Of a DNA stretch of 64,000 nucleotides, positions 6,001 through 30,572 are shown in pieces. A program made the translations under genes and the position numbers. The stretch comes from Candidatus Thiothrix putei. GTDB lineage: Bacteria > Pseudomonadota > Gammaproteobacteria > Thiotrichales > Thiotrichaceae. The stretch lies in the NCBI GenBank assembly GCA_029972225.1, contig CP124756.1, forward strand, positions 3,144,001-3,208,000, given 5' to 3'. Position 1 is the first letter of the stretch. Each line of letters starts with the position of its first letter. Below the pieces are notes generated by a model. It worked only from the letters and a program-made list of their open reading frames with translations, did not search any database and had not been told where the DNA came from.

Positions 6001-9000
6001 GCGACGGTTTCCACTACCGACACAGCCGCGAATGGTGCTTATAGCTTCAATAACATCAGTTCCACACTAACCTATCAGATTCGGGTGAATACGGCAGATG
6101 CTGATCTGCCAGCAGGCGCTATGCTAGGAACAATCAACCCACTGACTGGGGTTACGGTCACGGCAGGCGGCACAACTGCCAACAAGGACTTTGGCTTTGA
6201 TCCAGCCCCAACGACCATGGCAGAGTGCCTTGGTGTATTTCCCGGCCCAATCAATATCCATGACCCGGCTGGCTCCATCACGTTGGGAAGTTCAGGGAAA
6301 ATCTACGGGACAACCAACAATACCCTCATCACGCCGACGCTGATCGACACCACAAACACCAAGTGTGATGCTGCCACTTGCAAACAGTCAGGGACTGTTG
6401 CCAAGAAGCTGGCTTTCAATGTTAAACGCGGCGATGGTTCCGACGGCCCCCTGAATATTGCTGGCTCATCAACCATCAATATTGTTGGGGACAAAAACTA
6501 TTCTGCCGTGACAGTGGATTCGGCGGTGACAATTAACATAACCGGCCCTGCCATTATCCATATCGTTGGCAACCTTGATGGCGGGGTCAAAAACAGTAAT
6601 AGCTCCACCACGTTCAATATTACGGGTGATGTAGAGATTCATGCTGACAAGATAAAGCTTGGGTCATCCAACAAATTCGAGCTTGGAACTACTGGTTCCC
6701 TCCGCCTGTTTGCCAACTCCATTGAAGCCACGAGTTCCGCCGGTAATGCCGGTGTCCCTGCTTGGCGTTTTGGCGTGTTCTCCAAAGGCGACATCACTGT
6801 TGTCTCTTCTCCAAAACTGAATGGCTACTGGTATGCAGGTGGTTCAATCATTGGACAATTAAGCTCTGTGACCATGAGTGGTAGCTGGACTGCCGCCTCA
6901 GTCACAGCAGGATCATCCATGAACCTGACCTACGCAGGGGACAATAACACCCTGTGTGCGCTTTTGGCACAACAAACGGGGGGCATTACAGGCAAAGTCT
7001 TTGAAGACATGAATTACGGCGGTGGCGCAGGTCGTCCATTCGGCACTGCGGGGACAGTGGGTGTCTCTGGCGCACGGGTTGAGCTGTATAATGCCGCCGG
7101 TAACTTCATGAGCAGCACTACCACCGATACTAGCGGTGTTTACAACTTTACTAGCGTTACTGATGGGGCATATTACGTGCGAGCCGTCAATGATACGGTC
7201 AAATCGACCCGTACTGGCGCAAATGGCACGGAACGTGGCATTCAAACCTTCCGCACCGATGGTACAACCGATGTCGTCAACGAAATTGGTGGGCGCAAAC
7301 CAAGCAGTGCGGATGCACCCGCAAATACCACTAACCAGACGCTGAACACTGCTACCTTCACCCTCTCCGGTGGTGGTCAGGCACAATCCGTCCAACCGAT
7401 AACGATCGCAAGCACTGACATTACCGGCGCGAACTTCGGCTTCAACTTCAACACCGTGGTCAACACCAATGACAGCGGGCAAGGTTCATTACGCCAGTTC
7501 ATCCTCAACGCCAACCTGCTAGGCAACGACAGCACACTGGCACAAACCGGGCGCACCGCTGGCAAAGACAATGCCATTTTGGAATTATCCACCAGCGACC
7601 TTAACTACAATGCCGCCAACCAATACTGGAGCATTGCGGTACAAAGCGCCCTGCCCGCGCTGGGTAATGACATTATCCTCGATGCCTCTACCCAACCGGC
7701 GCGGACGACTGCCCCCACATTCACCTTCGCCAACCGCCCCGTCATTGAATTGAATGGCAGCAACGCCGGAGACTACACCAATGGTCTTGCATTAAATGGC
7801 GCGACCAATGGCAGCACGGTGAAATACTTCGCGATCAACCGCTTTAAAATGGCGGGTATCCAAGTGGTGCAATCTAAAAACAACCTGATTGCCTCAAACT
7901 ACATCGGTACTGACCCAACAGGTGCTATCAACCGGGGCAATGGCGATAGCGGCATCACCGTTATTAGCCCCTTAGGACCAAACTTAATCGGCGGTAGCAG
8001 TAGTGCTGGCAATCTGATTGCCTACAACGGCGGGGATGGCATCAAAGTCGGCGGCACAGATGGCACTAAAGCGACCAGCATGTTAGGCAACAAGATCTAC
8101 GCCAACGGCAAATTAGGCATTGACCTCGGTGGTAACGGTATTACCGTGAACGATGCCAATGATGCAGACACCGGTACTAACGACCTGATCAACTTCCCCA
8201 TGCTCGCTACTATCACTGAAAGTGGTGGCAACCTCACCCTCAAAGGGTGTGCGCCTGCGGGAGCAACCATTGAGCTGTTTGAAGCCGATGTCAGTGCAGG
8301 CGGCAAAGCCACGCCGGGTGCTAACAAATTCGGTAAATCCAAGGACTACGGCGAAGGCCAGACCTACCTTGATACTTTCGTGGAAGGCAGCGCCAGCGAT
8401 ACCGACACCGCAACGTGCGCCATTGCCACCGACACGGATGGCAACAACCACACCGGCATGAACGCCTTCACTATCACCATTCCAACTCCGGCAGGGTTTG
8501 TAACGGGTGACAGCATGACCGCCACCGCCACACTCAGCAATTCCGGCACTTCAGAATTCTCCCCCACTGTTCTGCTGCTGGAAGCGTACAATGTTGCCGG
8601 TAAAATCTACGAAGACGTGAATTACGGTGGCGGCAATGGGCGGGCGTTCAATGCGGCAACGGCTGGCATGACGGGTATCAGTGGTGCCAGCGTCGAGCTA
8701 CGCGATGCCAGCAATAACGTATTCGCCACCACCACGTCGACAGCCGACGGTAGCTATACCTTCACCAACATTCCAGTGGGTGTATACAGTGTGCAAGTGG
8801 TGAATGCCAGCGTGCGCTCGACCCGCTCCGGCTCAAACGGTTCCGAACGCGGGGTGATCACCTACCGTACTGACGGCGTGAACAATGTGAGTACCGCGAG
8901 TACGGCATTCAGCCAAGCCATTACGTTAAGTAATGCCAACCTCAGCAATGTCAGTTTCGGCTTCAACTTCGACACCATAACCAACACCAATGACAGTGGA

Positions 9001-11532
9001 GCAGGTTCTTTGCGCCAGTTTATCCTCAACGCCAATGTGTTGGGTGATGATAGTTCATTGGCACAAGTCGGGCGCACCGCAGGTAAAGAAAATGCGATTC
9101 TGGAACTCTCCACTACCGACGATCCGAATTACAACACAGGTTATTGGAGCATTCCTCTGCAAAGTGCTTTGCCCCCAATTACTGCACCGATTGTACTCGA
9201 TGGTGCACTGCCACAGGGATCTAACAGCAACCCAACATTGGAGCTAAACGGCACGAATGCCGGTGGTGCTGCTAACGGTCTTGCCTTGAGTGCTGGAGCC
9301 AGCAGCAGCACCCTGCGCAAACTGGCAATCAACGGTTTTAGCGGCGCGGGTATTTACTTAAACGGCAGCGACAATAATTACCTACTCGCCAATTATATCG
9401 GTATTACCCCAGCAGGGATTCCACGCGGTAATACGGGTTCAGGGATTCGTCTGGATACCGCCAGCGCTAATAAAATTGGCAGTACTATCAACGGTGATGG
9501 CAATATCATTGCCAACAACACCGGTAACGGCATTACGATTGCAGGCTCAAAAGCAGATACCCTGCTGAACAGCATTCTAGGCAACAGCATCTACGCCAAC
9601 GGTGGGCTGGGGATTGATTTGGTTGGCGGCACTGAAATTGGCAGTGTCACAACGAATGACACTAAAGATATCGATGAGGGGCCCAATCACCTGCTTAACT
9701 ACCCTGAGGTTAAAGTCAATTCCTTCGGTGTTAATGGTACGAAGATCGTGACCTACGACTTTAACCTAGATGTGCCAGCCGGTGATTACCGTCTCGAATT
9801 CTTCGTCAGTGCAGACAAGGATGATTCAGGCCATGGTGAAGGGCAAACCTTTATCGGTAGCAAGGACATCAGTCACCCCGGAACCGAGTCACTGAATTTC
9901 AAAGGTACGTTCAATGCCAATATGACAGTTGCCAAAGGCACATTTATCAGTGCGACACTCACACAGAAAAGCAACGCTACCACGTTCGGCTCAACCTCAG
10001 AGTTTTCCGGCATCCAAGATGGCATCACCACACAGGTGTGCGATAGCCTGATTACCGGCACGGCGGGCAATATAGTGATTGATGAGACTAACACTGCAAC
10101 TATTATTCAATTATTAGAAGCCAAAGATAGCAATGGCAACCCAATTACTTACGTTATTAGTGGCGGTGCAGACGGTAACTTCTTCACCATAGTCAACCCG
10201 ACGCCCGGTGCAACGCTGGATTGTGCAACCGTGAAGTTCCTGACCAGCAATGTCATTATTACCAAGTCAGCCCGCGATAATAACGAAGCTGAAGCACGTG
10301 CAACCCTACCGGGGACTTTACCACCTGCTGGGAACTATGAGTTGCCGCTGGATAAGGATCAGGATAACGTCTATGAATTGCAAATTACCGCAACCACTGC
10401 GGATGGCAAGAAATACGTGCGTGATCTCAATGTACGCGTCATGGATATTAACGAAGCCCCTAGCATCACCTCTGCATCACTGGTACTTACCAATGAGGAC
10501 AGTAATGCGGATGTCATGATGGTTCAAGCGCAAGACCCTGATGTGGGTGACAAACTAACTTACCGTATTAGCAGCGGTGCGGATAGCAGTCATTTTGAGA
10601 TTAACGCCACCACTGGGATTCTGCGCTTCCGTGCTATCCCTGACTATGATGCGCCGATGGACGCCAATCGTGACAATACCTATGAAATAGAAATCACCGT
10701 GACTGACAAAGGTGGCTTGAGTAGCAAAAAACTGTTCCAAATCAGGATTGTGAACAACACGGCTGACGATGGCGTAGTGATTAATGTCCGTGCCTTATTA
10801 CAAGGGCCTTACGACAACAAAACAGCGCTCATGTCAGCAAACTTGAACACTCTCGGCTTACTACCGAACAAACACCCCTACCAAGCATTCGGTCATGCGG
10901 GGGCTGAAACCCTCAGTACCATGCTGAAGGAAACAACCGGCAATAATGCGGTAGTGGATTGGGCATTGGTTGAATTGCGCACAAGTCCGGGCAGTGTGGT
11001 AGCCAGCCGTGCTGTTATCCTGCAACGGGACGGCGATTTGGTTGACGCTCAAACAGGCTCACCTAACCTGCACTTCGCTAACATCAAAGCAGGTAACTAC
11101 TACGTTAGTGTGCGCCACCGTAACCACTTAGGTGTTGTCAGTGCCAGCCCGGTCAGTTTGGACAACAGTGCGAAAATGCTCGACTTTGCTGCCAGCTCAA
11201 CCGTTGTCAGAGGCGAAGAGTCACGCTTCGTCAGTGGCAAACTGGCATGGATGTGGGCGGGTGACATTAATGGTAGCCATACCCTAACGGCTAATGGCCC
11301 CGGCAACGATGTCACTAGCCTGTTAAGTGGGGTGATTACCAGTATGGATAACCTCCAAGGCAACACCAACCACATTTTGTCCGGTTATCTGGCTACTGAC
11401 TTAAACTTTGATGGCAAAACGCTATTCACAGGCCCCGGTAACGATACCAGCTTGTTGGTGGGCAATATTCTGTTACACCCACTCAATACCGGGTTTGCCG
11501 CTAATTACATTGTGAAAGGTGGATTGCAGTAA
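1..11532 (+). CDS. Giant modular surface/adhesin-like protein (5' end outside window)
   Basis: About 3,840 codons are visible and the frame is open at base 1, so the true start lies upstream; the TTG at 7 is only the first possible initiator. Modules seen: GEVED motifs near bases 67, 1332 and 1849; two copies of a roughly 240-residue module with a Cys-rich end (about 160-870 and 1936-2655); six SdrD-B/Cna-B-like domains of the type GxVYxDxNGN (about 2665, 3028, 4738, 5893, 6985, 8593); two beta-helix-like modules starting NDSGxGSLRQFILNAN (about 7465 and 8990); a cadherin-like stretch (about 10450-10760); and two dockerin-like Asp/Asn segments containing GPGND at the C terminus (11260-11510). 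No LPXTG sorting motif or membrane anchor is visible. SdrD-B and cadherin domains are typical of secreted, calcium-stabilised adhesins, so a role in attachment or sheath structure is inferred. A hairpin terminator follows the stop. Confidence 0.85.
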   Translation: MRLRLTTDTAVTTSTPTGNASNGEVEDFPIAIALSLPPNSPSVSVTKGTTPTSCTTTVFSDNFNDLTGGQYFAENRPGATPIRNWVASGGGADTRNRTDGMHNATHGTSIYMDSGAIRRIFPAIPDTPSVDSNGVITTPPTALELRDTADDLTPNTTSGDSHWGPLPPSLSRTLNTTVGQRYRLYFELLPENDGNGWRNGMLRVDTPSGSVHLQTPAGTGSPYLYQVDFTANAATSTISFVNYSRLAIDDNWCDPLTTAWCTIDGLSTTPKTSEPMIDNVVVALESACVSTSTQDYGDAPASYGNPSHVITPNLMIGNHVDTESGALHSVNADGDDNNGSTDDEDGLHNPAIIPTTQGQTYTLTTYVKNETGSTAYLRAYLDFNRDGDFLDAGEQADTQHVYWNGYFQSTFTVPAGTTAGTTYARLRLSQTKSEAEVSIGSATSGEVEDHKLTISAGPFYDFGDSPASYGSARHTILNSLFLGANRPDSETASQYSYNAIGDGVDEDGAPKQYNNPTITLFPILKMTATSYSVDIRTTNTTGSAGKLYGWIDFDKSGTFDADEAASANVANNTNGTVTLTWNSIPTDIKLGTTFIRLRLTTDPAVTTSTPANNANNGEVEDFPIAVAIDVPPDSPDVTIVRGDGQTCSSTIFTDNFDDLASEQYFGANTSATPFVIRNWTATGGGSDTYARTVEVSPFAATQGRSIYFGNGMMRRFYPDTSAVLAFDGNGRMLEPPDAVELRDDVDDVSPGVNIHESHWGPEPVTLSRTFASTAGQRYRLYFSAIPEGGDWNSGIMRVDTPSGSVHFKAPGKDEGIQKYRIEFTATGASSTIRFVNYGHIGTDGGWCDPNSIISGPWCTVGGFPTDKKGNELIIDDVTVALASACPTSGISGTVYTDTNGNNAFDGATETGLANISVSLYDNNGTTATTSDDNLMATTSTAANGTYSFASISPTLRYRVEVDSRDADLPASAVIGTTNPLANIAVTAGNTLSNQNFGFDLACNASAGQFGGIAFRDYNQNGIREPQEEGIAGITVTAYNSANAVAATATTDARGWYTLNGLTNGTQYRLEYTNLPSGLYPGAAGTDTASTVRFVTASGSCAANLGISDPIEYCQAIPPVAAFNFVNGNPSIADIGNYASLFTFPYDATGGAYDQTPPAITKANTSQTGALWGLAYQKTTKTLYASAAMRRFSGFGALGTGGIYKVDMTDPNAAYTGASTYVDLRAIGIDTGNDVRVATDSCNNLATGVWSPSHDVAAWDKVGKVGVGDIDYDEPNNRLWLINLNDRKLYGIGNVSPTTAPTAANVLGGYAVNLPSPYACTSGTFRPWAVKYHRGYVYVGGVCDAATDPYNLSKVRGYVLRFNPANTAAGFSHVKDFAINQPRSGFGYTNIGEWSGWLPQADAVNVRPQFHSPIVGNLEFDTDGSIIVGIIDRAGLQKGTNSYDEPACGDPTIDYVDTMGDVLRLCKTDTGYLNDSEPGCSTAIATNSKTTDEYYWGDLGPSNNAWEGMNEIAAGGLALAPGKEHVLASAYDANSWGSNGVVWLNNRTGAKDNSYHVSWSTLGKSTGMGELEVLCDPSPVEVGNRVWLDADKDGLQDANEAGIANVTVTLACGADNATTTTNAQGEYYFSNKAGGNATFMGSGESCSLSVNTTQTSLNTYTLTTQNADNKTDNNSQTDIRDSDATVSGGNAVINFTVGSSGQNNHGLDFGYQANTSTEPPTSWTSQRIIDDCHGTSSYNPNGADGAENAPCQSYAQDIYENWNPAVAGAGDTDIKQCRLGYYDGTEQYYFFAWQFRENWNYDNTGASREYHLELDTDHDATSPETPARSDLFIRVQPRSTYQGSTWHAVGNGDAIIYKDANNDVGCANPGQKDTKGCSTGYEADYSINQGDAFVRILNGQVELAIKAGVVDGLNNVKARCYASQTSTLSKDKLDWHDQNDASDLSSYTFDSTGFAEVGPNATAGTISGTVYTDSNGNDTFDSATEAGINAISVTLLNAANNATVSTTDTAANGAYSFNNISSTLTYQIRVNTADADLPAGAMLGTINPLTGVTVTAGGTTANKDFGFDPAPTTMAECLGVFPGPINIHDPAGSITLGSSGKIYGTTNNTLITPTLIDTTNTKCDAATCKQSGTVAKKLAFNVKRGDGSDGPLNIAGSSTINIVGDKNYSAVTVDSAVTINITGPAIIHIVGNLDGGVKNSNSSTTFNITGDVEIHADKIKLGSSNKFELGTTGSLRLFANSIEATSSAGNAGVPAWRFGVFSKGDITVVSSPKLNGYWYAGGSIIGQLSSVTMSGSWTAASVTAGSSMNLTYAGDNNTLCALLAQQTGGITGKVFEDMNYGGGAGRPFGTAGTVGVSGARVELYNAAGNFMSSTTTDTSGVYNFTSVTDGAYYVRAVNDTVKSTRTGANGTERGIQTFRTDGTTDVVNEIGGRKPSSADAPANTTNQTLNTATFTLSGGGQAQSVQPITIASTDITGANFGFNFNTVVNTNDSGQGSLRQFILNANLLGNDSTLAQTGRTAGKDNAILELSTSDLNYNAANQYWSIAVQSALPALGNDIILDASTQPARTTAPTFTFANRPVIELNGSNAGDYTNGLALNGATNGSTVKYFAINRFKMAGIQVVQSKNNLIASNYIGTDPTGAINRGNGDSGITVISPLGPNLIGGSSSAGNLIAYNGGDGIKVGGTDGTKATSMLGNKIYANGKLGIDLGGNGITVNDANDADTGTNDLINFPMLATITESGGNLTLKGCAPAGATIELFEADVSAGGKATPGANKFGKSKDYGEGQTYLDTFVEGSASDTDTATCAIATDTDGNNHTGMNAFTITIPTPAGFVTGDSMTATATLSNSGTSEFSPTVLLLEAYNVAGKIYEDVNYGGGNGRAFNAATAGMTGISGASVELRDASNNVFATTTSTADGSYTFTNIPVGVYSVQVVNASVRSTRSGSNGSERGVITYRTDGVNNVSTASTAFSQAITLSNANLSNVSFGFNFDTITNTNDSGAGSLRQFILNANVLGDDSSLAQVGRTAGKENAILELSTTDDPNYNTGYWSIPLQSALPPITAPIVLDGALPQGSNSNPTLELNGTNAGGAANGLALSAGASSSTLRKLAINGFSGAGIYLNGSDNNYLLANYIGITPAGIPRGNTGSGIRLDTASANKIGSTINGDGNIIANNTGNGITIAGSKADTLLNSILGNSIYANGGLGIDLVGGTEIGSVTTNDTKDIDEGPNHLLNYPEVKVNSFGVNGTKIVTYDFNLDVPAGDYRLEFFVSADKDDSGHGEGQTFIGSKDISHPGTESLNFKGTFNANMTVAKGTFISATLTQKSNATTFGSTSEFSGIQDGITTQVCDSLITGTAGNIVIDETNTATIIQLLEAKDSNGNPITYVISGGADGNFFTIVNPTPGATLDCATVKFLTSNVIITKSARDNNEAEARATLPGTLPPAGNYELPLDKDQDNVYELQITATTADGKKYVRDLNVRVMDINEAPSITSASLVLTNEDSNADVMMVQAQDPDVGDKLTYRISSGADSSHFEINATTGILRFRAIPDYDAPMDANRDNTYEIEITVTDKGGLSSKKLFQIRIVNNTADDGVVINVRALLQGPYDNKTALMSANLNTLGLLPNKHPYQAFGHAGAETLSTMLKETTGNNAVVDWALVELRTSPGSVVASRAVILQRDGDLVDAQTGSPNLHFANIKAGNYYVSVRHRNHLGVVSASPVSLDNSAKMLDFAASSTVVRGEESRFVSGKLAWMWAGDINGSHTLTANGPGNDVTSLLSGVITSMDNLQGNTNHILSGYLATDLNFDGKTLFTGPGNDTSLLVGNILLHPLNTGFAANYIVKGGLQ

Positions 11533-26997: not shown

Positions 26998-27179
26998 GTT
27001 GACGCCTCCTCAATAATTGCTGATAGGCGAAGAATAACATAAATGGGTGAAGAAACCCCATCGGCAAGCGTTCGGCTCTGCCTACTAGCATACCGTGGGG
27101 CATTAGCTTTTCGCCGTAATGCAAGACACCACGGACAGGGCAACAGTCTGGTCAAGTGTCGCTGCTGCTGACATTTGAG

Positions 27180-27725
27180 CTAGGAGAGGACGAGGCGGAA
27201 GCCTATGTTGTTGTTCCGATTATCCGGCGTGTTGTTGTTACGGTTATCAGTACCTTTAAAACGCCGTTGCAGTAAATCATGCAGAATCTGATGGTCAATG
27301 CTGGGGAAATAGCCGGAAATATCGGTTTTGACGAACCACGGGTAACGCCGCAGGTTGGCTTGCACTTGGGCAATGGCACGGTGTACGCCCTTGCCCGGGC
27401 GGCAGGCGTAGGTGGTGGGGACGAGGGTACGTTCAAACACCGGCTCGGCAAGGTTCATGATGGCGTGGTGCAACACCCGGTCTTCAAAACAGGCTGCGTG
27501 GATCAGGCGTTCTTTGGGGTCGTGGATGTGGAATTCGCGGTAGCGGGCATAGGGGGCTTTAGCCTGCAAAATGTCTGCTGCCAGTTTGTTGAGGTTGTAG
27601 TCTAGCCGCTGAGTGAAGTGGATAACATCGGGGCGGTGGTGTTTGCCGCGTGCGGCTTTCCACACTGCCAGCATCAAATTGTCGATGGCGGCTATGTCAG
27701 CCAGCCGGATGCAATGACGTTTCAT
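27180..27725 (-). pseudogene. DGR-type reverse transcriptase, truncated and fused to the template repeat
   Basis: From ATG 27725 the frame encodes about 155 residues of an RT N-terminal half: the REFHIHDPKERLIH region, ACRPGKGVHRAIAQVQ and FVKTDISGYFPSIDHQIL, which carries the first catalytic Asp. It then passes at about 27250 into the adenine-rich template repeat (RNNNTPDNRNNN) and stops at 27180. The palm half with YxDD, the DGR-typical motif 4 and the thumb are absent; a functional RT is typically 300-450 residues. The simplest reading is one deletion joining the middle of the RT to the middle of the TR in frame. The 5' end overlaps the HRDC gene by 29 bp, as in an operon. Catalytic activity is very unlikely. 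Confidence 0.85.
27186..27248 (-). repeat. DGR template repeat (TR), 5'-truncated
   Basis: On the minus strand this reads as AAC-rich codons (R-NNN-TPDNR-NNN-I-GFRLV). It aligns without gaps to the VR at 28496-28558. In the first 60 positions 15 of 21 adenines differ and only 2 of 39 other positions differ (9 and 48). The 12 bases TTCCGCCTCGTC at the 3' end are identical, matching the expected homing-initiation end. Upstream of 27248 the sequence is RT-like rather than TR-like, so the 5' part of the TR is missing. Confidence 0.9.
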
Positions 27726-28284
27726 CGGCTTGGGTTGTCCGTGTAGGAGCTTGCCCTGCAAGCGATTCCCCCGAAGAATCGCCAGCAAGGCTGGCTCCTA
27801 CAGAAGAAGGAGGGGCAGCGGATGACTGGAACTCGGTTTTCAGCAGGGTGAGGAAGCGTTCGCCGTATTTTTCCAGCTTAGCGTCACCCACGCCGTTAAT
27901 TTCACCCAAGGCGGCGGCAGTCGTCACGCGCTTTGTCACCATATCTGCCATTTGGGCATTGGAGATGATGGCATAGACCGGGGTGTTTTCGGCTTCGGAG
28001 ATGGCTTTGCGCAAGTCCCGCAGTTTGGCGTAGACAGCGAAATCTTCTGCACCCAGAATCTCACGGTAATCGACTTGCCCGCGTTTATCGACCGCTTTGG
28101 TGGGTTTGCTGGGTGAAGATGAAGGCTCCAGATAGGTCACGCACACTGACCAGTAGCAAAATTCACTGCGCTCGACAAAGCGTTTATCCACTGACACCAG
28201 CCGATGCCGGGTGCAGAAATCGTCGATGGTTTCCTGATCGCTATCAGGCTCCAGCGCATCCACGCTGAAAAACTGTAATTTCAT
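27697..28284 (-). CDS. HRDC-domain DGR accessory protein
   Basis: A 195-residue protein starting MKLQFFSVDALEPDS at ATG 28284, supported by GAGAGG just upstream; longer readings have no such site. The N-terminal 85 residues are an uncharacterised domain typical of phage- or mobile-element-linked HRDC proteins. Residues about 95-165 form an HRDC nucleic-acid-binding fold (YAKLRDLRKAISEAENTPVYAI, split as KLRDLR and VYAIISNAQM, then INGVGDAKLEKYGERFL). HRDC-domain genes are a known alternative to avd as DGR accessories. The last 35 or so residues (SLAGDSSGESLAGQ) are encoded by a REP-like insertion, so the native C terminus is probably lost or altered. Confidence 0.8.
   Translation of the reverse strand: MKLQFFSVDALEPDSDQETIDDFCTRHRLVSVDKRFVERSEFCYWSVCVTYLEPSSSPSKPTKAVDKRGQVDYREILGAEDFAVYAKLRDLRKAISEAENTPVYAIISNAQMADMVTKRVTTAAALGEINGVGDAKLEKYGERFLTLLKTEFQSSAAPPSSVGASLAGDSSGESLAGQAPTRTTQADETSLHPAG
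27742..27802. repeat. REP-like palindromic element
   Basis: TGTAGGAGC (27742-27750) and GCTCCTACA (27794-27802) form the outer stem, with GCGATTC/GAATCGC as an inner stem. The layout resembles REP elements that begin GTAGGAGC in other gammaproteobacteria. It lies across the end of the HRDC gene, just before the RT start. A half-copy is in the TIR gene at 30021-30048. Confidence 0.8.
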
Positions 28285-28486: not shown

Positions 28487-29689
28487 CTATTGACCTGAGA
28501 CGAGGCGGAACCCGAGGCTGCTGCCCCGATTACCCGGCGTGAAGCTGAAGCGGAGAGCGGAACGCACGAACCGTGCATCGTCGTACCAAGAACCACCGCG
28601 CAACACGCGGGAGGCGCTCCCACCAGATTCCCAAGCACTACCATCCACTGGCGCACCTTTGTAATCACCGTGCCAACTGTCCTGTACCCATTCCCATACA
28701 TTGCCGTTCATGTCATTAAGACCATAGCCATTCGCTGCAAATTTTCCGACAGGCGCGGTATAAACCCATTGATCCTTACCGCTCGCCAACCCATCACAAC
28801 ATTCATCCTTGCCATAATTGGCAAACTCATGGCTGGCTTTTTTACCCCAATGATAAGCGCTATCCGTACCACCTCGCGCTGCATATTCCCATTCTGCTTC
28901 AGTCGGCAGACGGTAAGGTTTACCCGTTTCCTTACTTAACCACTGCGCGTAAGTATTGGCATCATTCCAGCTCACACCGACTATCGGATAATTGAAATCG
29001 GACAAGCCCACACCTAGTTTTTTATAATAATCAGGTGCATTCGGCTCCAACCATTCAGGAGCAGGGCAAACACCGACATCCACACATGCCATGTATTGAC
29101 CTACTGTCGTTTCAGTTTTTGCCATTTGGAAAGCACTAATAGTAACTTCGTGAGCAGGTGTTTCATCACCACCACATGCCGCTACGCCCTCTACATTGTC
29201 GCGCCCATCCACACAACCCATGGTGAAAGTGCCCGCAGGGATAGGGAGCATAACTGGCTCAACAACTTGGCTGTTCCCCGCAACAGGAAGCGAAGCAGGC
29301 GGCTCAACCACAACAACAGGCTCTGGAGCAGAAGCAGGCTTTGGAGCAGGTGGCTTCGGCTGCGGCATCACACATTTACCTTTTTTCCAATCACCGCCTT
29401 TCTTTTCACACTTTTGCTGTAATTCAGCAACGCGGGCAGCTTCGGCTTTTGCAGCAGCGGCTTTGGCTTTATCAGCAGCTTCTTTAGCTTCACGCTTTAC
29501 CTTTTCATCATACTGGCGTTTTTCTTCAGCCGCTTTTTCCTGCTTTATTTTCTCAACATCCTCAACAGCAAGCTTATCGAGGTCTGTTTCAGCACACACA
29601 ACGCCAACACTCAAAATCAAAGTAGCAAATAAGTAAGCGCCCCAACCATGCAGGCGGGAAGATGGTTTAAGGACATATTTTGGGGTCAT
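28487..29689 (-). CDS. DGR variable protein: exported FGE/C-type-lectin-fold protein
   Basis: About 400 residues starting at ATG 29689, with GGAGG 6 nt upstream. A signal peptide or membrane anchor (AYLFATLILSVGVVCA) is followed by a charged Lys/Ala-rich coiled coil (about 40-110), a Pro-rich linker, and from about 145 a formylglycine-generating-enzyme/sulfatase-modifying domain: IPAGTFTMG, ETTVGQYMACV, VGVSWNDANTYAQWLS, LPTEAEWEYAARGG, GLNDMNGNVWEWVQD. The C terminus SRVLRGGSW...GFRLV is the usual DGR variable position of the C-type lectin fold. The last 20 or so codons form the VR. Such domains serve as ligand-binding scaffolds rather than enzymes. It overlaps the upstream TIR gene by 23 bp and so is translationally linked to it. 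Confidence 0.92.
   Translation of the reverse strand: MTPKYVLKPSSRLHGWGAYLFATLILSVGVVCAETDLDKLAVEDVEKIKQEKAAEEKRQYDEKVKREAKEAADKAKAAAAKAEAARVAELQQKCEKKGGDWKKGKCVMPQPKPPAPKPASAPEPVVVVEPPASLPVAGNSQVVEPVMLPIPAGTFTMGCVDGRDNVEGVAACGGDETPAHEVTISAFQMAKTETTVGQYMACVDVGVCPAPEWLEPNAPDYYKKLGVGLSDFNYPIVGVSWNDANTYAQWLSKETGKPYRLPTEAEWEYAARGGTDSAYHWGKKASHEFANYGKDECCDGLASGKDQWVYTAPVGKFAANGYGLNDMNGNVWEWVQDSWHGDYKGAPVDGSAWESGGSASRVLRGGSWYDDARFVRSALRFSFTPGNRGSSLGFRLVSGQ
28496..28558 (-). repeat. DGR variable region (VR)
   Basis: These are the last codons of the FGE-fold gene. Compared with the TR, codons NNN-TPDNR-NNN-I became FSF-TPGNR-GSS-L. Changes are concentrated at TR adenines, mostly the first two bases of AAC codons, while the flanking frame and the 3' anchor are conserved. 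This pattern is expected of adenine-directed mutagenesis followed by homing, not of ordinary divergence. Confidence 0.92.
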
Positions 29690-30572
29690 CAACTGCCTCC
29701 TTTAATTGCTTGTATAGATCGTTAGCTTTAACGTTATCTCGCTCAGCCGAGTCTTTATAAAATTTACAACTGGCTTTTATGTCTTTATCTGCGCCTCGCC
29801 CCTTCTGATAAACAATCCCCAACAGATACATCGCCTCACTTTCCCCTTTCTTTGCCAGATCAATCAGACGATCAACAGCCGAAGGCCATGCAGTTTCGTC
29901 GTCTGCTGCCAGCGTGGCTTTGGCTTGGGCCAATTCATTGGCTTGGGCTTCTTTTGCCTTGCGTTCAGCGTCGGCTTGCACTTGGGCAGGGTCAATGGTA
30001 ACGGGTGGGGTAGCCACTGCTGTAGAAGCCTGCCTTGCAGGCGATTCTTCCTTCACAGGGTCAATTTGCGTGGACTGCCAATAAATACCACTACCGCCAA
30101 GCACCGCAGCAGAGATAAAGAGTGTCGGCAACCAAGGGAATTTTTTAGGCGGCTCTGGCTGCCGAGACGGTGGCACAGACTCACCGGTTTGCACAAACTT
30201 GATGCCGCGCAGTAAGCGCTGGAAATTCGCGTCATCCGCACTGCCCCGCCACTGACGCAAATCGGCGATCTGAATCGCATTAAACGGTGTCGGTATCTCG
30301 GTATCCTTACCCAGCACACTGATGAGATTGCGCTTGTTAAATGCCCACAAACATTCTGCCCGCACGTAATCAGATGCCACTGAGTTCGGCGTCCACACCG
30401 CCACTGTGCAGCTTGCCCCGTGTAACGCCTTTTGAATCACATCCTGATAATGTTGCCCCGGCAGGATTTCAGGATCCCACCACACTTCATAGCCGTGCGC
30501 TTCCAACCCTTTGGCAAGCCGTGCAACCCACTCACGATCTTTGGAACTGTAACTGATAAAAATGTCGGTCAT
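29667..30572 (-). CDS. TIR-domain protein with transmembrane helix and Sel1-like C terminus
   Basis: The start is set at ATG 30572 (MTDIFISYSSKDREWV), the normal beginning of a TIR domain; longer readings run into an inverted-repeat element. Residues 1-135 are TIR, with ECLWAFNKRN late in the domain. The helix FPWLPTLFISAAVLGGSGIYW lies at about 150-172. A REP-like insertion (EESPARQAS) follows, then an Ala/Gln helix and a Sel1/TPR-like unit (AMYLLGIVYQKGRG). TIR domains act as NAD-consuming effectors or signalling adaptors in bacterial defence. It overlaps the DGR variable protein gene, so a cytoplasmic TIR moiety linked to a diversified exported sensor is inferred. Confidence 0.85.
   Translation of the reverse strand: MTDIFISYSSKDREWVARLAKGLEAHGYEVWWDPEILPGQHYQDVIQKALHGASCTVAVWTPNSVASDYVRAECLWAFNKRNLISVLGKDTEIPTPFNAIQIADLRQWRGSADDANFQRLLRGIKFVQTGESVPPSRQPEPPKKFPWLPTLFISAAVLGGSGIYWQSTQIDPVKEESPARQASTAVATPPVTIDPAQVQADAERKAKEAQANELAQAKATLAADDETAWPSAVDRLIDLAKKGESEAMYLLGIVYQKGRGADKDIKASCKFYKDSAERDNVKANDLYKQLKEAVDDPKICP
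30021..30048. repeat. Half-copy of the REP-like element inside the TIR gene
   Basis: The 28 bases starting TGTAGAAGCCTGCCTTGCAG match the left half of the 27742-27802 element with about 5 differences. It is read in frame as part of a linker after the transmembrane helix and does not break the gene. Confidence 0.7.

Follow-up and report, generated by a model that had tools for sequence, protein, structure and literature searches.

An RT reading frame that ends in a TR

Can a DGR whose RT gene runs directly into its TR still rewrite its target, or is it a fossil? The question is raised by a locus of Candidatus Thiothrix putei lying in a 64,000-nucleotide stretch of contig CP124756.1, hereafter the window. 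A minus-strand ORF is open across positions 27788-27180, and its ATG at 27725 matches the start of related RTs. The product from this ATG is 181 aa long, with the C-terminus ...LLQRRFKGTDNRNNNTPDNRNNNIGFRLVLS*. The first-pass annotation had described an N-terminal RT part with FVKTDISGYFPSI that runs in frame into the 3' part of the TR and then stops. This description was confirmed: 160 RT codons, without an internal stop, are followed by 67 nt of TR. On the minus strand the order is a TIR gene, a gene for an FGE-sulfatase-domain protein with the VR at its 3' end, an HRDC-domain gene, the RT fragment and the end of the TR. The features are listed below.

29667..30572 (-): TIR protein upstream of the target gene (Pfam TIR_2, E 2.2e-27; a weak terminal Sel1 match is below cut-off; same order in relative G001)
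28487..29692 (-): intact ORF of the target, a protein with an FGE-sulfatase domain (Pfam FGE-sulfatase, E 1.3e-59, residues 146-398)
28499..28610 (-): VR at the 3' end of the target, with approximate borders (TR/VR comparison)
27697..28284 (-): HRDC-domain accessory protein, ORF intact, overlapping the RT start (Pfam HRDC, E 3.8e-17; orthologues adjoin intact RTs)
27247..27725 (-): RT codons 1-160, N-terminal part with FVKTDISGYFPSI, without the SQ and YxDD motifs (ORF, Pfam RVT_1, PHROG RT, G001 RT)
27246..27247 (-): deletion joint, at which 609 bp of G001 (203 codons) are absent, in frame, with a 1-base overlap (alignment to G001 locus L067)
27180..27246 (-): last 67 nt of the TR, which close the RT ORF in frame and supply its TAG stop (27180) (identity to the G001 TR; A-specific differences from the VR)
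27050..27179 (-): about 130 nt flanking the TR on its 3' side, conserved and not deleted (alignment of five loci; consensus fold without shuffle control)

Residues 71-153 of the RT fragment align with positions 8-92 of the 205 of Pfam RVT_1 (E 9.8e-6; 25.9 bits, short of the 29.6 bits of the curated cut-off), and residues 8-159 match a PHROG RT family with an E value of 1.4e-51. The fragment is 88% identical over 160 aa to the intact DGR RT of G001, a genome of the same genus, and by similarity, though not by a tree, it is closest to DGR RTs. The TR remnant agrees with the G001 TR at 66 of 67 positions. Identity of this extent excludes a chance match for either part. The HRDC accessory adjoining the RT and the FGE-sulfatase (C-type-lectin-like) target with a C-terminal VR are further DGR lineage features found here.

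Five HRDC-type loci conserve the flank behind the TR; of those relatives, only G001 was found to have the DUF29 gene that comes next. Its consensus fold has 54 pairs (TR included), 7 of them with two-sided change, a count made without shuffle control. The flank is perhaps the priming region of the TR-RNA, placed downstream of the TR. A palindromic REP-like repeat (27742-27802) lies inside an insertion of about 70 nt in the C-terminal end of the HRDC gene; the insertion is absent in G001 and keeps the frame. An arm similar to this repeat is present at 30017-30050.

The RT-TR joint compared with an intact relative

The corresponding locus of G001 (L067) has the gene order of the window with a complete RT and then a complete TR. 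The G001 RT (L067 6718-7725) comprises 335 codons from the corresponding ATG and contains IGSLTSQ and YMDD; the TR lies at about L067 7744-7872 (about 129 nt, borders set by eye). Base 27246 of the window aligns to L067 7197 on the RT side and to L067 7806 on the TR side. What the window lacks is RT codons 161-335, the short spacer and roughly 60 nt from the start of the TR. The (I/V/L)GxxxSQ and YxDD motifs, both present in G001, lie in the deleted part, and in place of a full-length TR paired with the VR the window holds the last 67 nt only. Comparison with the complete G001 locus thus bears out the absence of the RT half with YxDD and of the 5' TR half, and the single 609-bp gap against a syntenic intact copy backs the claim that one in-frame deletion joined RT and TR. 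The path proposed earlier for that deletion, from mid-RT to mid-TR, can be made more precise: the TR is downstream of the RT, and the deletion runs through the 3' half of the RT and a short spacer. That the frame stays open across the joint is incidental: the number of lost bases is divisible by three, and the TR happens to be in the VR-coding frame.

Complete RTs with a TR downstream were also found in the related G006 (two loci, one with its TR cut by a contig end), G013, G007 and G004. Among 79 relatives listed, of 114 stretches with related RTs found, none matches the query past residue 162, and none has the fusion of the window. The objection that relatives might conserve the same short RT, foreseen in the first-pass annotation, therefore has no counterpart in these loci.

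A further concern is that RT and TR are complete in the cell population and that the assembly shows a collapsed or deleted form, or a minority structural variant. For a disrupted Thiohalocapsa locus, long reads are reported to have shown structural variants in which both RT and TR are intact (PMC10907252). The joint seen here, however, has a 1-base overlap and not a repeat prone to collapse; the genome (G000) is one contig of 4.28 Mb rated 100% complete; and on both sides of the joint the flanks are collinear with G001, bar a few other indels. We consider an artefact or minority variant quite improbable.

The joint was also considered as a recombination breakpoint, identity to G001 seeming to rise there from 86% to 95%. 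This candidate was rejected, because the TR and its flank are strongly conserved generally, so that the jump is uninformative on ancestry. About 100 nt of TR are identical between G006 C39 and G013 though dS between the N-terminal halves of their RTs is 1.2.

Other RTs and TRs in the genome

A search of the genome with the G001 RT returned the window fragment, a DGR RT at 2527 kb, a broken RT at 2119 kb and an RT at 1094 kb. The missing RT half has no close copy in the one-contig genome, and the same holds for the missing 5' half of the TR and for a full-length TR; relocation of the missing pieces was accordingly rejected as a candidate. With the intact synteny of G001, this supports the "fossil" reading of the first-pass annotation. 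The RT at 1094 kb adjoins a putative Cas1 ORF. At L001 1303-2130, an RT of about 280 aa stands directly behind a Cas1-like ORF and, by its look, is presumably CRISPR-associated; RTs of similar length are present in G002, G003, G004, G007 and G011. A search with RVT_1 added an ORF of 588 aa, which we take to be a putative group II intron protein.

Of the DGR RTs found in the genome, just the one at 2527 kb (G000:C1:2527144-2528202, 364 aa) is intact. It is 40% identical to the window RT fragment over 142 residues, adjoins an Avd gene, not an HRDC gene, and has a NACHT-FGE target. The 2119-kb DGR likewise has a NACHT-FGE target and Avd beside its broken RT, and both elements are of the Avd class. 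Pfam PF05635, used as a stand-in for Avd, gave no match anywhere, controls included. The TRs of these two DGRs do not fit the window VR; for the 2527-kb TR the best local alignment contains 13 non-A mismatches and 5 gaps. TR searches of the genome gave strong matches to the remnant and the VR, and weaker ones to 41 nt at 83% identity (at the TR of the 2119-kb DGR) and to two FGE genes, one over 59 nt with 78% identity and the other over 31 nt with 87%. By sequence, none of the weaker matches is a second TR of the window element. No other HRDC-type RT was found in the genome, nor any TR elsewhere in it that matches the window VR at all non-A sites and is accompanied by an intact RT.

These results bear on the proposal that the DGR depends on an RT acting in trans, which would use the TR remnant, or another TR, and still diversify the 3' half of the VR. 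The remnant does retain the TR 3' end and conserved flank, the HRDC gene is open and an intact DGR is available. In Thiohalocapsa, degenerate loci are reported to show activity in trans (PMC10907252), and for Pseudogulbenkiania it has been suggested that an RT was lost because the remaining one sufficed (PMC3521204). Against this stand the Avd partner and ill-fitting TR of the intact DGR, the failure to find another HRDC-type RT or a matching TR in the genome, and the VR and TR remnant themselves, between which neither the non-A sites nor the 3' end have been homogenised. The full-genome search suggested in the first-pass annotation thus did uncover a complete DGR RT, but one of the Avd class and with no matching TR. 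Dependence in trans is not supported, and we rate it as very improbable. Because no HRDC-type RT or TR was found elsewhere and the Avd-class TRs do not fit, the window VR is probably frozen.

The VR, the TR remnant and the history of the alleles

Over the 57 nt comparable without gap, nearly all differences of the window VR from the TR remnant fall on adenines of the TR: 14 of 20 A sites are changed, compared with 2 of 37 others (Fisher p 4.6e-7). Given this A-specific change, the VR was once written by a DGR of such kind. The G001 pair has changes at 11/32 A sites and 0/90 others, and the intact 2527-kb DGR at 13/29 and 0/86, respectively.

The 2/37 of the window is higher than the 1/638 non-A sites changed in seven VR/TR pairs of RT-intact loci (p 0.008), a count that excludes the terminal G/C flip, G007 VR2 (indel), the Avd-type pair of G007 (1 non-A mismatch in 60 nt) and G013, in which no VR was found in the 14 kb scanned. 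The window pair also has a 5-nt indel at the 3' end and shows no IMH/IMH* match, while the 3' ends of the G001, G006 C39, G004 and G007 VR1 pairs match up to the final G/C flip. At the two non-A positions and the 3' indel the window VR keeps the states of the G006 and G013 TRs; the TR remnant carries the G001 states at one of the two positions and at the indel. Part of the disagreement thus lies at places where it is the TR, not the VR, that looks derived, with the derived state common to G001.

In the RT-deleted loci of the genus other than the window, non-A changes pool to 4/393 (p 0.07 against RT-intact loci): 0/101 in the 2119-kb DGR (L033), 0 and 1 of 98 in G006 C16, and 3/96 plus a terminal flip in G002 VR2. 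G002 VR1 was excluded, its ungapped count of 16/97 being inflated by an indel. Non-A mismatches were rejected as a clean clock of RT death, since the values of L033 and G006 C16 (0, 0 and 1 only) contradict it.

Divergence from G001 is uneven along the locus: dS is 0.145 for TIR, 0.205 for FGE without the VR, 1.29 for HRDC, 0.53 for the RT fragment and 0.045 for DUF29. On these values the middle of the cassette is another allele than the one in G001, and the histories of VR-HRDC and of RT-TR may not be the same. A simple recent deletion followed by drift does not account for the way in which VR and TR remnant disagree; this needs either exchange of VR-HRDC between alleles or homing that stopped before the deletion. 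A G006-like donor as the simple source of the HRDC gene was rejected: 106 and 108 of 146 aa are identical to G006 versus 93 of 146 to G001, but dS, 1.29 to G001, is saturated to G006.

In the RT fragment, assignable changes since the split from G001 number 8 synonymous to 2 non-synonymous, compared with 9 to 6 on the G001 branch, with 34 codons ambiguous. The absence of stops and this ratio fit a break that is recent relative to the divergence of the two alleles.

Broken RTs in the genus and beyond

Recurrence was searched for in 63 genomes of the family, including 16 of the genus, and 12 DGR RT loci of the genus were scored. Eight are complete (G001, G004, G006 C3, G006 C39, two in G007, G013 and the 2527-kb locus of the own genome), and four have internal RT deletions beside kept VRs: the window, the 2119-kb locus, G002 and G006 C16. 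The 2119-kb RT has lost about 45-60 codons including SQ, out of frame, and keeps YVDD. The G002 RT lacks residues 170-266, in frame, and with them both motifs (L072, G002:C31, 7500-8219); its TR and two VRs are present, and none of the five matches in that genome is a complete DGR RT. In G006 C16 roughly residues 87-226, in the numbering of the intact 2527-kb RT, are lost out of frame. The break falls at RT residues 159-169 in three of these four loci, and two of the four are out of frame. The count leaves out a lone C-terminal piece (G006 C125) and weak fragments (G002 C5, G004 C1:2385084 and G007 C8).

The 2119-kb locus (L033, G000:C1:2112000-2126000, positions 7234-8072) is a second broken DGR in the genome, with VR and TR differing at 14 of 27 A sites and at none of the 101 others; either the break is very recent or the intact 2527-kb DGR of the Avd type serves this locus. 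At L074 (G006:C16), 7230-9683, one TR and two VRs on opposite strands adjoin the RT without its middle. No TR/VR pair was found in the 11 kb scanned for the G006 C125 piece, nor in the stretches scanned for two lone RT pieces from outside the genus (G071 C39 and G023 C4).

Among the 79 listed relatives, 73 have an SQ-like motif and YxDD in frame, two run into an end, and in L092, L093, L115 and L159 one or both motifs are absent. Since YxDD is present in L159, its SQ may just be a variant, and the L092 match is doubtful, stopping about 95 bases before the contig end. In the wider sample at most 3 of 77 RT loci are broken, by one core deletion with TR and VRs kept, one frameshift and the doubtful case at the contig end. 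The core deletion is found in Accumulibacter sp. SCELSE-7 (L093, 1437-2093), where the RT has lost residues of about 127-238 in frame and a TR (2175-2280) and two VRs are kept. Broken RTs are thus more frequent in the genus (4/12, or 3/11 without the window) than in the wider sample (3/77; p 0.006 and 0.024), in a comparison that was made post hoc between samples gathered differently.

The open frame, the 8:2 ratio, the clustered break points and an Accumulibacter RT that keeps both ends without the core might be read as signs that the short RT is a retained functional protein, such as an RNA- or HRDC-binding inhibitor of the DGR, but all of the 8:2 changes may be older than the deletion, the frame is lost in two of the four genus cases and the same fusion occurs in none of the 79 listed relatives. 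We consider this explanation very improbable.

Relation to known inactivated DGRs

DGRs with an inactivated RT but intact VR/TR have been described (Schillinger et al. 2012, PMC3521204). As in those cases, the window RT is destroyed and a VR/TR pair with A-specific changes is kept; there the lesions are nonsense, insertion-element and frameshift lesions, whereas the window has one deletion of the catalytic half and half of the TR, which fuses both. The purple sulfur bacterium Thiohalocapsa PB-PSB1 has several DGR loci; some are complete, while in others the machinery is missing or pseudogenised, and NACHT and TIR domains are among the targets. Its describers put some of the degenerate loci down to trans activity and report intact structural variants of others in the population (PMC10907252). 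They describe one complete locus kept in each class and some VRs that match a TR elsewhere, whereas no matching RT or TR was found for the class of the window.

The HRDC-type DGR of Treponema denticola resembles the window in an HRDC gene that overlaps the RT and in FGE-sulfatase targets, and isolates without RT and TR keep the target genes; its accessory lies between TR and RT (PMC4891356), in contrast to the order target, HRDC, RT, TR of the window. The Anabaena VR remnant all3226 has no RT gene or pseudogene nearby, and the authors suggest that the machinery was removed once a good variant had been selected (PMC7517822); the window keeps half of the RT and half of the TR in place. In the literature searched, no paper on DGRs of Thiothrix or Thiotrichales was found. 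Inactivated DGRs are already known, and the lesion of the window is unusual.

We consider it very probable that the window contains a degenerate HRDC-type DGR in which one 609-bp deletion fused RT codon 160 to mid-TR and left the target frozen. Synteny with G001, in which the arrangement persists, shows that an ancestor carried first the target with its VR, then the HRDC accessory, the RT and the TR. The alignment shows that a single illegitimate deletion of 609 bp then joined RT codon 160 to mid-TR. Because SQ, YxDD and the 5' half of the TR were lost with it, the locus is expected, from the established DGR mechanism, to give neither an active enzyme nor full-length mutagenic cDNA. The target gene stays intact and, with the variant last written, would be frozen.

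The window locus in itself is an ordinary inactivated DGR. Set beside G001 it shows cleanly the states before and after the loss: the DGR is intact in one species, and in a relative the corresponding locus differs by one deletion. It is conceivable, although we think it unlikely, that RT core loss with target, TR parts and accessory kept recurs in the lineage under selection, locking a successful variant, and that the N-terminal remnant may persist as a binding protein. The genus cases pose the question of whether loss of the DGR enzyme is random, or whether freezing of a diversified receptor is favoured.
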